Source of the DNA: Lachnospiraceae bacterium
GTDB lineage: Bacteria > Bacillota > Clostridia > Lachnospirales > Lachnospiraceae
NCBI GenBank assembly: GCA_021770755.1
Contig: JAETQI010000038.1
Location: forward strand, 1 to 43,638
DNA length: 43,638 nt
Direction of reading: 5' to 3'
Position 1 is the stretch's first letter. Each line of letters begins with the position of its first letter. Under the pieces are notes generated by a model. It was not told the origin of the DNA and ran no database searches. It saw only the letters and a program-made list of their open reading frames with translations. Of the stretch, positions 5,940 to 10,807 are shown in pieces. Both the position numbers and the translations under genes were made by a program.

Positions 5940-6617
5940 ATGTCTATATTTAACAGGATTTCGGATATACTAAAAGCAAATATCAATGATCTGCTGGACA
6001 GGGCGGAGGATCCGGAGAAGATGGTCAAGCAGATCATTGCAGATATGGAGGAACAGGTCAGGGATGCAACAGAAGCGCTCGGACAGGCTATGGCAAGTGA
6101 AAAGCAGGCATACGCACAGCTCGAGAAGGCAAAGGCGGGCTCTAGGGAATGGGAAGACAAGGCAAAGACTGCGCTGAAGGCGGGCAACGAAGCGCTCGCG
6201 AAAAAGGCGCTTGCGTCGAAAGTCGAGATCGACAAAAATGTGCAGTCGCTCCAGGCTTCTTACGACCAGATCGCTGCGCAGACGAGTGAACTTCATTCGA
6301 GAGTCGGGGTGCTCCGGCAAAAGCTTGAGGAGGCAAGGCAGCGGCAGAACATGCTCATCGCGAGGGCGAAGATGGCGGATGCTACAGAGAGCGTAGCGAC
6401 AGCGGTCACAAACACAGATCCAGACAGCGCGTTTGCGAAGCTCGATAAGATGGAGCGGAAAGTGGAGGACAGGGAAGCGAGGGCGGAGGCGTTTGCTGCA
6501 ATGTCCGGTGAGACGGTGTTTGCAAAGGATGAGTTTGCGGAGCTTGAGACCAGCCAGGCTGTTGACGCGGAGCTGCAGAGACTTATGAAGGAATTGAATG
6601 GCGGAAATGAAAATTAA
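5940..6617 (+). CDS. pspA: PspA/IM30 (Vipp1) family membrane-stress protein
   Basis: A 225-residue, almost wholly alpha-helical protein that starts MSIFNRISDILKANINDLL. This is the amphipathic N-terminal helix typical of PspA/IM30 proteins. Long coiled coils rich in Glu, Lys, Ala and Gln fill residues 25-160. The family binds and stabilises the inner face of the membrane and assembles into ESCRT-III-like oligomers. No pspB, pspC or liaIFSR genes are nearby, so its regulation here is unclear. A GTGAGG-type ribosome site precedes the ATG. Its 3' end overlaps the next gene by 20 bases, suggesting translational coupling with the DUF2156-GNAT protein. Confidence 0.9.
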   Translation: MSIFNRISDILKANINDLLDRAEDPEKMVKQIIADMEEQVRDATEALGQAMASEKQAYAQLEKAKAGSREWEDKAKTALKAGNEALAKKALASKVEIDKNVQSLQASYDQIAAQTSELHSRVGVLRQKLEEARQRQNMLIARAKMADATESVATAVTNTDPDSAFAKLDKMERKVEDREARAEAFAAMSGETVFAKDEFAELETSQAVDAELQRLMKELNGGNEN

Positions 6618-8394
6618 TTTTCATCCGATCTCGCTGGGTGACAGAGGCTGGATGATCGAGAAATTGAAAGAAGAGCACCCGGATGCCTGCGAATATACGT
6701 TTGCCAACAATTTTATCTGGGCAAAGGGATACAATGTGCAGGTTGGATGCGCCTATGGCTGCGGTGTGATCCGCTCCAGGGGACAGGAGCATTTTCAATA
6801 TTCCTTTCCCTTTGGAGATGGGGACAAGAGGGCGATGATAGAGCACCTCAGAAAGATCTGCGCAGTGCATGGCTGCAAGCTGAATCTCTACCCTGTCAAT
6901 GAAGAGAACAGATCAAAACTGATCGAGTGGTTTCCGGGAGAATTTGAGATCTGTTCTGACAGGGACAGCTTTGATTATGTGTACACGACAGAAAAGCTTG
7001 CTTCGTTAAGAGGCAGGAAACTGCACGGCAAACGAAATCATATAGCCCGTTTTATGGATGATGGAGACTGGCATTATGAGCGGATGACAGAGGAGAATAT
7101 CGCAGAGTGCCGCAGCATGGCAAAAGAATGGATCGCATCGCGCGCTGAGAAGTGGAATGATGAGATGGAGCAGGAGATGGCAGTGCTGGAGGTGGCATTT
7201 GCCAATTTTAAGGAGCTGGGCCTGTGCGGCGGTGTTCTGTATAAGGGCGGCGGGATCGTGGCATTTGCGGTCGGTGAGCCGCTCAATGAGGATACCTTTG
7301 TGGTTCATTTTGAGAAGGCGTTTCCGGATCTGCAGGGAGCTTATCCGATGATCAACCAGCAGTTTGTCCTGCACGAAGCACAGGATTACAAGTATGTGAA
7401 CCGCGAGGAGGATACAGGGGACCAGGGACTTAGAAAGGCGAAGATGTCCTACTATCCGGATATCCTGTTAAAAAAGTACAAGGCGGTGGAGAGCCGTGTC
7501 GTGTTTGCAGACGAGACGGTTCAGGAGCATATCGTGGAGATATGGAGCCGATGCTTTGGCGACAGCAGGGACTATATAGCGCTGTATCTGGAAAACCGCT
7601 TTGAGCGTGAAAACATGTATGTGATCTATCAGGATGGACGTCCTGTGTCGATGACGAGCCTGCTGCCGGTCCAGGTGACGATCGGCGGCAGGAAGGAACC
7701 TGCCAGATATGTCTACGCAGTCGCCACGCTGCCGGAATACAGGGAAAAGGGCTATGCATCGGAGATCATCAGGCATGCCGCGGATCGCTGCAATGAGCCG
7801 CTGCTTTTGCAGCCGGCTGACAGGGATCTGCAGGAATATTACGAGAGACAGGGTTTTCGGGATGCTTTTGGCGAGAGCCCCTGCTGGATCTATGCCGGAA
7901 GATGTACGAACAGGGCGGATATCCGATGCCTGCCGGACGAAGACAGCGGCCTGCGTGCAGCGGAAGAGGCGGAGGAGGATACGCTGGATATCCTTGGAGG
8001 CTGGCTGGTCTCTGACGCGGACGCAAAGGAATACAAGGCAGTGCGGGATCGGTTTTTTGAAGGCGAGGGTTATGTAGAGTGGGATGAGAAGGCGATCGCC
8101 TATGCGATAAGGGAAAACCACTTCTGCGGCGGAAGAACGCTGCTGCTGACCAGGGAGCGGGAGATGCAGGATCCCGGGAAGGCGGTGCTGATGTACCGGC
8201 TGGACAAGGACAGCCTTCATATCGTGGAGACGACACTTGACGATGATGCGCTTCATGCGGTACTGCCGGAGCTGCTCGAATATACAGGCGCATCGTGGGC
8301 ATATGAGCGCAATATGGGCGGAATGATCCTGCTGCCGGATCGGTTTCAGAATTGGGATTGCAGGGAAGGATACCTCGGACTGACACTGGGGTGA
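6598..8394 (+). CDS. DUF2156 / GNAT acetyltransferase fusion protein
   Basis: A 598-residue protein. Residues 1 to about 295 resemble DUF2156, the domain related to the catalytic part of phosphatidylglycerol lysyltransferases (aminoacyl-tRNA-using GNAT fold). Residues about 300-430 form a second, classical GNAT domain with VATLPEYREKGYAS, the acetyl-CoA loop, near 375-388. The last 165 residues are not recognised. No membrane segments are seen, so it is not a full MprF. Substrates are unknown; transfer to a lipid, peptide or small molecule is possible. The start at 6598 has AAGGA five bases upstream, inside pspA, which it overlaps by 20 bases. Coupling to pspA hints at an envelope role, which is inference. 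Confidence 0.75.
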   Translation: MAEMKINFHPISLGDRGWMIEKLKEEHPDACEYTFANNFIWAKGYNVQVGCAYGCGVIRSRGQEHFQYSFPFGDGDKRAMIEHLRKICAVHGCKLNLYPVNEENRSKLIEWFPGEFEICSDRDSFDYVYTTEKLASLRGRKLHGKRNHIARFMDDGDWHYERMTEENIAECRSMAKEWIASRAEKWNDEMEQEMAVLEVAFANFKELGLCGGVLYKGGGIVAFAVGEPLNEDTFVVHFEKAFPDLQGAYPMINQQFVLHEAQDYKYVNREEDTGDQGLRKAKMSYYPDILLKKYKAVESRVVFADETVQEHIVEIWSRCFGDSRDYIALYLENRFERENMYVIYQDGRPVSMTSLLPVQVTIGGRKEPARYVYAVATLPEYREKGYASEIIRHAADRCNEPLLLQPADRDLQEYYERQGFRDAFGESPCWIYAGRCTNRADIRCLPDEDSGLRAAEEAEEDTLDILGGWLVSDADAKEYKAVRDRFFEGEGYVEWDEKAIAYAIRENHFCGGRTLLLTREREMQDPGKAVLMYRLDKDSLHIVETTLDDDALHAVLPELLEYTGASWAYERNMGGMILLPDRFQNWDCREGYLGLTLG

Positions 8395-8438
8395 TATTTT
8401 GATTAAGATATATCAATTAAAATGATTAATTTTAATGC

Positions 8439-8467
8439 TTGCAATATGCTTTGAATCGTGTTACTAT
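8439..8467 (+). promoter_or_regulatory. Promoter for leuA T-box leader
   Basis: TTGCAA (8439-8444), 17-base spacer, TACTAT (8462-8467). It lies just upstream of the T-box leader, with the start of transcription expected near 8474. Confidence 0.6.
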
Positions 8468-8473
8468 AGAACC

Positions 8474-8786
8474 ATGAATAAAAGACAAAATGGCGATGAA
8501 AAGAAATAGTAGTGATACAGAACATTTCAGAGAGCTGTCATCTGCTGCGAGACAGTATGGGAAGTATGGCGAACTCATCTTGGAGCTGTGTGTCTGAACC
8601 GGTCGGAAGCAGATCAGTAGGACACAACGGAGCACCCACCGTTATAAGGGAAAGGCATGATCGTGCCGATGAGCGTATGTTTTTGTATGGAGCGCATATG
8701 GGAACATGAAGTAGAGTGGTACCGCGAAGGAATAGGAAAGTCTTTCGTCTCTGCAATGAAATGATTGCGGAGCGAAGGATTTTTTT
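8474..8786 (+). promoter_or_regulatory. T-box leader, leucine (CTC specifier)
   Basis: A leader of about 310 bases ends in a terminator and holds the T-box core AGAGTGGTACCGCG (8713-8726). The specifier-loop context GAACTCA (8571-8577) presents CTC (8574-8576), a leucine codon, and the gene downstream is leuA. Uncharged tRNA-Leu should stabilise the antiterminator and allow leuA transcription. The full Stem I pairing was not drawn, so the specifier call rests on its context and on the match to the gene. Confidence 0.88.
8741..8786 (+). terminator. T-box regulated terminator
   Basis: A 16-bp stem with one bulged C (arms 8741-8757 and 8764-8779), a short loop and seven T (8780-8786). The 5' arm lies just after the T-box sequence, as expected for the alternative antiterminator fold. 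Confidence 0.85.
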
Positions 8787-8809: not shown

Positions 8810-10807
8810 ATGAAAAATGCGAGTAAGTATGAAAGATCCTATTTTTTGCCTCCGGTCTGTACATATGACTGGGTGAAGAAGGATGCGATCACAGCACCGC
8901 CAATCTGGTGTTCGGTGGATCTGCGCGACGGGAATCAGGCGCTGATCGAGCCGATGAGTCTGGATGAGAAGCTGCAGTTTTTCGAGATGCTTGTGGAGAT
9001 CGGCTTTAAGGAGATCGAGGTTGGGTTCCCTGCGGCATCGGAGACGGAATATGAGTTTATGCGTGCCCTGATTGAGAGAGATATGATTCCTGACGACGTG
9101 ACGGTCCAGGTGCTCACGCAGGCGAGGGAACATATTATCAAGAAGACCTTCGAGGCGGTCAAAGGGGCGCCGCACGCGGTGATCCATCTCTATAATTCAA
9201 CCTCAGTAGCGCAGCGCGAGCAGGTCTTTAAGAAAAGTAAGGAAGAGATCAAGAAGATCGCGACAGACGGCGCGGAGCTTCTGAAAAAACTGGCGTCGGA
9301 GACGGACGGGAATTTTTCGTTTGAGTACAGTCCCGAGAGCTTCCACGGCACGGAAGTCGACTATGCGGTCGAAGTGTGCAACGCGGTGCTGGACATCTGG
9401 CAGCCGACAGCGGACAGGAAAGCGATCATCAACATTCCGACGACCGTTGAGAATGCCATGCCGCATGTGTTTGCCACACAGGTGGAATACATCCACAAAA
9501 ATCTGAAATACAGGGATGCGGTGGTGCTCTCCGTGCATCCGCACAATGACCGCGGATGCGGCGTGTGCGATGCGGAGTTCAGCGTCCTTGCAGGTGCGGA
9601 CCGCGTGGAGGGGACGCTTTTTGGAAACGGGGAACGGACAGGAAATGTGGATCTGATCACCGTGGCGATGAATATGTTTTCCCACGGCGTCGACCCGAAG
9701 CTCGATTTTTCCAATATGCCCGAGATCCGGGAGAAGTATGAGCTGTTCACGCGCATGAGAGTGCATGAGCGGCAGCCGTACTCCGGTGATCTTGTATTTA
9801 CCGCCTTTTCGGGTTCGCATCAGGATGCGATCGCGAAAGGGATGCAGTGGCGCGAGGAGAAGGAGTCCGACAAGTGGACCGTGCCGTATCTGCCGGTTGA
9901 TCCCAAGGATGTGGGCAGAAATTACGATGCTGACGTGATCCGCATCAACAGCCAGTCAGGAAAAGGCGGCGTGAACTATATCCTGAAACAAAACTACGGG
10001 ATCTCCCTGCCGTACGCTATGCGCGAGGAAGTGGGATATCTCGTGAAGGATGTCTCGGACCAGGAGCACAAGGTGCTCTCGCCGCAGTGGGTTTATGACA
10101 TTTTCTGCGAAAATTATGTGGACAACACGCCGCTGTTCCAGATCAACGAATGTCATTTCAAACAGGTGGACGGCATCATGGCGGAGGCGGTGATCACCTG
10201 CGGCGACAGAAAGACTACTGTGGATGCGAACGGTAACGGGCGTCTTGATGCGGTGAGCAATACGATCAAGCAGTATTTTGGGATCAGCTATCAGTTGTCG
10301 GACTATGAGGAGCACGCCCTCACAAAAGGCTCCTCGTCCAAGGCGATCGCTTATGTGAGCGTCACCTGCAACGGCGAGAAGTTCTGGGGTGTCGGGATGG
10401 ATGATGACATTATCAAGGCGTCGATCCATGCACTCTGCGTCAGCGTCAATAAGCTCCCGCAGATCCAGGAGAATGAGGCGTGCCAGGATGAGCGCATGAT
10501 GGAGATCATGAACTATATCCAGGCAAATTACCAGGCGACAGCACTCAGCGACGTGGCAGCGCACTTTCATTTATCCGAGCCTTACTTAAGCAAATATATC
10601 CATGAGAAATCGGGCAAGACCTTCGGAGATATTCTGATAAACATACGTTTAAAGAAGGCGAAGACACTGCTCCGGAATGGGAATATGACAGTCGAGAATG
10701 TGGCGATGGCGGTCGGATATCCGAATGTGGAGCATTTTAACCGCATTTTCAAGAAGAAGATGGGTGTGACGCCCGTACAGTACAGAAAAGGCAGCAGTAA
10801 CAATTAA
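8810..10807 (+). CDS. leuA: 2-isopropylmalate synthase fused to AraC-type DNA-binding domain
   Basis: A 665-residue protein. Residues 1 to about 555 are a complete LeuA of the long type: DLRDGNQ (37-43), HPHNDRG (243-249) and GNGERTGN (272-279) are the metal and substrate motifs of the barrel. The region from about 430 to 553 fits the leucine-binding regulatory domain. It catalyses acetyl-CoA plus 2-oxoisovalerate to 2-isopropylmalate, the first leucine-specific step. Residues about 563-662 form an AraC/XylS domain with two helix-turn-helix units ([19 protein letters not shown]; later [20 protein letters not shown]), ending GVTPVQYRK. The reading frame is unbroken. A leucine T-box controls it. 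No leuBCD genes follow in the window. The fusion suggests leucine-dependent DNA binding, which is inference. Confidence 0.93.

Follow-up and report, generated by a model that had tools for sequence, protein, structure and literature searches.

The leuA-araC locus

The analyzed window, i.e., the whole 43,638-nt stretch of DNA, carries on its plus strand a single open frame without internal stop codons that joins LeuA to an AraC-type DNA-binding domain. Every Pfam domain of the product, three from LeuA followed by a pair of AraC-type helix-turn-helix (HTH) units, scores above its cut-off. The gene, its domains and its leader are arranged as follows:

8487-8755, + strand: T-box leader (RF00230; Rfam 126 bits, E 1e-27)
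8810..10807, + strand: LeuA-AraC fusion gene, 665 aa
8903..9733, + strand: catalytic domain, HMGL-like, residues 32-308 (Pfam E 2e-71)
9788..9988, + strand: post-catalytic domain IPMS_D2, residues 327-393 (Pfam E 2e-34)
10091..10456, + strand: LeuA_dimer allosteric domain, residues 428-549 (Pfam E 6e-24)
10457..10495, + strand: linker, residues 550-562, with the lowest conservation among the stretches compared
10496..10789, + strand: AraC-type DNA-binding domain with two HTH units, residues 563-660 (Pfam and structure model)

Judged by its barrel, D2 and LeuA_dimer domains and its active-site residues, the LeuA part is a long-type 2-isopropylmalate synthase; it scores 802 bits with NCBIfam NF002991 (cut-off 455) and 662 bits with TIGR00970 (leuA_yeast), below the cut-off of 697. 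The C-terminal part belongs by its two above-threshold HTH matches to the AraC/XylS type: HTH_18 covers residues 583-660 (73.2 bits, cut-off 33.6, E 2e-20) and HTH_AraC covers residues 621-660 (56.2 bits, cut-off 26.6, E 3e-15), and a sequence search matched this part to solved AraC-family domains. The leader exceeds the Rfam gathering score and has the leucine codon CUC (8574-8576) at what we take to be the specifier place of the T-box alignment, which identifies it by sequence as a leucine T-box. Thus, the original prediction that one frame, preceded by a leucine T-box, joins an entire long-type LeuA, regulatory domain included, to two AraC-type HTH units was borne out by Pfam and Rfam. With 4 of 54 candidates scored, the genome that contains the window gave one match at E<=1e-100; with 20 of 54 scored, there was no second LeuA of the long type among the matches listed.

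The AlphaFold2 model of the fusion protein (mean pLDDT 76.6, pTM 0.61, residues 321-386 poor) ends the regulatory domain with a helix at 534-547, followed by a short linker and seven helices at 562-663. Its top Foldseek matches are the Mycobacterium tuberculosis LeuA structures, to which the LeuA part is approximately 44-45% identical in the Foldseek alignment. The two proteins (1sr9 and 3fig for M. tuberculosis) share the domain order, the active-site residues and the leucine regulatory domain, whereas the aligned mycobacterial chains have no DNA-binding domain behind LeuA. Residues R39, D40, H243, and H245 align with R80, D81, H285, and H287 of 1sr9 and are invariant in 45 fusion proteins. 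Within the regulatory domain, G475, N476, G477, Y499, E501, S508, and A512 are conserved in all 54 fused rows of the alignment, and in 20, 20, 20, 19, 18, 18, and 19 of the 20 non-fused rows, respectively; the remaining leucine-loop positions are variable, and the loop together with the GNGRL motif is largely conserved. According to PMC11057210, the leucine pockets and their closing loops are located at the dimer interface of the LeuA regulatory domain.

Distribution and phylogeny of the fusion

The fusion is present as a single open frame in 30 of 36 genomes of the genus, with 72-100% identity, and since the unbroken frame recurs in these 30 loci it is neither a chance event nor an assembly error. 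In the other six genomes, the fusion is spread over two contigs (G006), only an unfused LeuA of approximately 50% identity is encoded (G001, G029, and G030), or neither fused nor unfused LeuA was found (G027 and G032); the 74% complete G027 nevertheless has the upstream operator described below, 48 bp from a contig end. Five genomes (G007, G010, G013, G020, and G023) encode, in addition to the fusion, an unfused LeuA that is approximately 50% identical (open frames of 564-584 aa).

Among the matches listed, from which divergent fusions may be missing, at least 68 of 299 Lachnospiraceae genomes encode a full-length fusion; one of those counted, in G298, covers the query up to residue 660 and lacks a match to the short HTH pattern. 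To these are added a copy cut by a contig end (G222) and two copies with LeuA and the HTH in different frames, L129 (G120:C54:1500-5800) and L365 (G137:C6:70800-74500). Outside the family, fusions were detected at E<=1e-180 in three of 391 genomes of the class, two from one family (G430 and G565) and one from another (G567), where contamination may be their source. The related records that bear names include Roseburia faecis M72, Falcatimonas sp. MSJ-15, and Petralouisia muris. A LeuA frame was obtained in 78 of the best 80 of 491 related named records, L166 and L207 being the two where none was obtained, and it is fused in 78 of 78. No examined relative has an unlinked leuA and araC pair at this site, and the possibility that the fusion is a local accident, with a separate araC gene in relatives, was rejected on its conservation in the genus, the family and the named records.

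On a quick LeuA tree built from 54 fused rows and 20 others (including G137), HTH-less genes are nested among the fused ones. The fused label requires seven changes on this tree, and the grouping of all fused rows in one clade is not rejected (AU p 0.163); one gain followed by several losses of the HTH fits the tree without being proven by it. The only two genomes with LeuA and the HTH in different frames both retain the operator. In G120, the HTH lies in the +1 frame after two stops; in G137, it begins 20 bp past the LeuA match in the -1 frame, adjoining a run, TTTAAAAAAAAC, that could permit slippage. A true split, slippage or a sequencing error may alike account for these two cases. Among decayed copies, the 12 listed stop-containing matches that were checked had neither an HTH remnant (best E 0.66) nor an operator site.

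A conserved operator upstream of fusion genes

The upstream regions of the fusion genes share a 40-bit motif with the consensus TTAAAATAnATCAATAAAAnTGATTAAATTTAATCATT, which defines a candidate operator of approximately 39 bp. In the window, it takes the following form:

8403..8441, + strand: candidate operator of the fusion gene (34 bits and E 1.6e-7 with model R1)
8403..8417, + strand: direct repeat 1, TTAAGATATATCAAT (consensus TTAAAATAnATCAAT)
8426..8440, + strand: direct repeat 2, TTAATTTTAATGCTT (consensus TTAAATTTAATCATT), offset by 23 bp relative to repeat 1
8459..8467, + strand: extended -10 element TGTTACTAT, at the same distance as in 95 of 102 distinct sites

The operator is best read as a direct repeat of TTAAAnTnnATCAnT with a 23-bp spacing; the second repeat is degenerate in the window. 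A palindrome was considered as well, since the columns about centre 29.5 are symmetric too (0.72 for 10 pairs; the direct repeat reaches 0.604 on 15 columns). We tentatively prefer the direct repeat because AraC-type binding sites are tandem and the left arm of the palindrome varies in some lineages. A tandem repeat site just upstream of the promoter and a two-HTH C-terminal domain are features shared with AraC/XylS regulators such as AraC (2k9s) and Rns (6xiu); the spacing differs, being approximately 21 bp at araI. In contrast to these regulators, the effector part of LeuA-AraC is a complete metabolic enzyme.

The operator was found in 55 of 56 fusion loci with more than 200 bp of upstream sequence, the loci from which the motif itself was derived (so that this count is no independent test); L049 is the exception. 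Forty-nine of the 55 sites lie within 650 bp, five are farther upstream, and that of L014 was located on longer pieces of the same genome. All 74 named loci for which 300 bp or more of upstream sequence was available have the operator as well, although many come from the same genomes as the training set. For scanning whole genomes, a sequence-only model, R1, was built from 48 sites, of which the window site, whose runner-up in its own genome scores 15 bits, is one. When 15 fusion genomes were scanned laxly, the highest-scoring match always preceded the fusion gene (26-41 bits), and no other independent match exceeded 16.6 bits. Across the family, 49 of 70 fusion genomes have a match at E<=0.003 within 1.5 kb upstream of the gene, always on the gene strand; among held-out genomes, outside the training loci, the strict match was obtained in 21 of 40. 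Matches elsewhere are confined to three fusion genomes (G265, G204, and G095) and, one each, to four of 229 non-fusion genomes (G188, G292, G231, and G254), all with 19.8-22 bits.

A strict site is missing in 21 of the 70 family fusion genomes. The upstream regions of 20 of them were read, the 21st having only 74 bp; their scores with the position weight matrix (PWM) range from 24.9 (L110) to -36 (L115), several retain only a core like TTAAAATAnATCAA, and those of L115, L118, L120, and L128 contain nothing convincing as an operator. The operator is restricted to HTH-bearing genes: no site precedes any of 30 HTH-less leuA genes of family genomes (best PWM -4.9; absence of the HTH checked by tblastn for 26 of them and resting on match ends for four), and the seven HTH-less leuA genes nested within the fusion clade lack it. 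Conversely, the fusions in the three genomes of other families have it (PWM 41.5, 26.3, and 49.4), and G137, with the HTH in another frame, has a site (PWM 22.3; R1 8.3 bits) with the -10 element at the fixed distance. In addition, G023 has seven operator-like matches of equal score (21 bits) on seven contigs (e.g., C101:34806-34846); several lie close to a contig end, and a mobile element present in repeated copies may be their source.

Since the site occurs at fusion loci, is absent at HTH-less leuA genes and yields a single strong match in each of the 15 genomes scanned laxly, the fusion protein most likely regulates its own promoter, and direct binding of the operator by the fused HTH is, in our estimate, highly probable. 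We consider it very improbable that an unlinked regulator binds the conserved site while the fused HTH does something else or nothing. Such a regulator would be compatible with co-inheritance of site and HTH, as the tree-aware test of their association was not significant (5 independent pairs, same 2.0, opposite 0; same 1.6, opposite 0 with G137 labelled unfused), so that common descent could explain part of it. It is harder to reconcile with the single strong site at the fusion gene in 15 genomes, the sites of the fusions in other families, the lack of a site at the seven nested HTH-less genes, and the retention of both HTH and site in the frame-split G120 and G137.

The slow evolution of the HTH, similar to that of the enzyme part, also speaks against an unlinked regulator. 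Median dN/dS is 0.009 for the HTH (38 pairs), 0.023 for LeuA (41 pairs), and 0.05 for the linker (30 pairs), and the means are 0.025, 0.026, and 0.077, respectively; these are simple counts over the 41 of 300 genus pairs with overall dS of 0.2-1.5, which are not independent and approach saturation of dS. By this measure, the HTH is under purifying selection and not decaying, and the alignment of homologues shows an intact domain with invariant positions. That it is a functionless vestige of a chance fusion is thus scarcely credible given the dN/dS, the invariant positions and the conserved operator, even though the HTH-less genes inside the fusion clade indicate that it can be lost.

Promoter architecture and two proposed additional brakes

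In 95 of 102 distinct sites, the extended -10 element TGnTAnnAT begins exactly 14 bp after the 44-column motif. The script behind this count favoured 14 in ties, but the same spacing is evident independently from the column frequencies (TG 0.90/0.92, TA 0.98/0.97, AT 0.91/0.97). The promoter has no clear -35 element, which together with the fixed spacing between operator and -10 suggests an activator role; activation as the sign of control appears reasonably likely. The opposite sign is an unlikely though substantial alternative: the fusion protein would act on its operator as a repressor, as a second operator copy close after the -10 hexamer, a typical repressor position, in 41 of 95 promoters would suggest. 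However, the site common to these promoters lies upstream of the -35 region at a fixed, activator-like spacing to the extended -10, and 54 of 95 promoters are without a downstream copy by the score used.

The downstream half-sites are situated within 90 bp after the -10 hexamer; most are on the minus strand, at a distance of 3-27 bp. Half-sites scoring at least 8 occur in 41 of the 59 promoters that lack a T-box but in none of the 36 that have one (Fisher 5e-13); 18 of the 95 distinct promoters have neither element and none has both. The T-box is therefore a variable add-on to the fusion promoter, being present in 36 and absent in 59 of the 95 promoters as classified by a short motif, which Rfam confirmed in 13 of 14 motif loci tested (not in L194); the Rfam search detected no T-box in six motif-less loci or in 18 more. 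The tree-aware test of T-box versus downstream operator was not significant (5 pairs, opposite 1.3, same 0), and both this Fisher value and that for HTH versus site (7e-40) accordingly overstate independence. The window promoter, without a downstream copy (best half-site -4.7), belongs to the T-box class. Two layers of leucine control had been proposed for the locus; the window indeed has both the operator and the leucine T-box, whereas the arrangement is not general, given the 59 promoters without a T-box. Like known leucine T-box leaders (RF00230), that of the window is a T-box, with CUC at the specifier place; it differs in standing behind an AraC-type operator, which other lineages supplement with a second operator copy instead. 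We propose that a further brake would differ by lineage, acting either by repression from a second operator over the start site or by attenuation at a leucine T-box, of which the window would represent the T-box version.

Possible additional targets

The HTH had been envisaged as possibly making LeuA a leucine-responsive transcription factor, with a search for shared motifs upstream of leu, ilv, and bcaT genes suggested as a check. Its role as a DNA-binding regulator is very likely because of the conserved operator ahead of the fusion gene, along with the intact HTH and its purifying selection; control of the whole pathway was not supported. In the genome of the window, three PF00330 (leuC-like) places and ilvC have no site (PWM -11.6 or lower), for which reason control looks mainly autogenous, with occasional recruits such as ilvB and leuD. 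Two PF00330 (leuC-like) and two leuD-like genes of this genome adjoin one another (G000:C60:10212-13704).

A broad leucine regulon of leu, ilv, and bcaT genes is accordingly quite improbable, and a global leu/ilv regulon was rejected as the general case. For it speak the weak-hit regions, 2 of 16 inspected (from 10 genomes) preceding branched-chain amino acid genes (G250, ilvB; G009, a leuD-like gene), as well as site-like sequences elsewhere. Among 30 ilvB upstream regions, related sites precede TTGACA in G250 and G290, half-sites occur in G163 (before TTGACA) and G319 (121 bp ahead of the gene), and that of G094 is weak; among 30 leuD upstream regions of 250 bp each, that of G009 contains both an upstream and a downstream copy, and that of G035 contains a related site in the upstream position (ilvB and leuD being assigned by eye). 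Most of the 30 ilvB and 30 leuD regions scanned have no operator, as is the case for the leuC-like and ilvC genes above.

Proposed mechanism and relation to known systems

We regard LeuA-AraC as a likely bifunctional protein, an enzyme and at the same time an autogenous transcription factor that would serve as a leucine-switched activator of its own promoter. The LeuA dimer would set its two AraC-type domains on the direct-repeat pair just upstream of the -35 region and activate transcription when leucine is low. Leucine bound at the dimer interface of the regulatory domain would alter how far apart the two HTH domains lie or how they are oriented, the signal passing from the last regulatory helix through the linker of approximately 13 residues to the DNA-binding domain, and would thereby switch off activation while inhibiting catalysis.

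We infer leucine sensing purely from homology, and consider leucine quite likely to be the signal. An improbable alternative is that the fusion binds its own operator in response to the catalytic state, with 2-ketoisovalerate, acetyl-CoA or 2-isopropylmalate as the signal. The conserved catalytic residues would agree with it, as would the precedent of yeast Leu3, which has alpha-isopropylmalate as its co-effector; the DNA-binding domain, however, is joined right behind the allosteric domain and not to the barrel, and the key leucine-loop residues are conserved. Returning to the leucine-switched activator, we suggest only tentatively, at slightly less than even likelihood, the wider scheme in which one allosteric leucine site governs both catalysis and, via an operator private to the gene, transcription, while a second operator and a T-box, as unrelated leucine brakes, interchange in evolution.

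Enzymes that carry their own DNA-binding domain, or trigger enzymes, include PutA, BirA, NadR, Ada, and MocR. Like them, LeuA-AraC is predicted to regulate transcription by means of a DNA-binding domain attached to an enzyme or enzyme-like part; we know of no trigger enzyme in which an HTH is linked to isopropylmalate synthase or to its leucine domain. No published LeuA-AraC fusion was found in the literature searched, which covered few subscription papers and no preprints. The LeuA and AraC halves each belong to an ordinary family; new here is the operator of the fusion gene, set at a constant spacing ahead of an extended -10.

The first enzyme of leucine synthesis thus probably controls its own production in many gut Lachnospiraceae, whose leuA should not be taken for an enzyme gene only. 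If correct, this would provide a family-wide case among gut bacteria in which a biosynthetic enzyme subject to feedback inhibition doubles as its own transcription factor and has a defined operator, and protein- and tRNA-based sensing of one amino acid could be compared as substitutes at one promoter.

Several features of the neighbourhood were observed in addition. The gene ahead of the operator in the window (6598-8394) encodes a phosphatidylglycerol-lysyltransferase C-terminal domain and a GNAT acetyltransferase domain. At L039, L041, L042, L044, L045, L051, L052, and L054, the operator overlaps, by eye, a terminator-like hairpin behind the preceding gene (GGAAAGTGA..TCACTTTCC or similar, then a T-run), and that gene is often a solute-symporter-like ORF. 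In L009, a DUF5713 gene (Pfam; 1137-1472) is located between the operator, with the T-box where present, and leuA-araC, and may share their control because of this position; similar ORFs were recognized by eye in L017 and L019.
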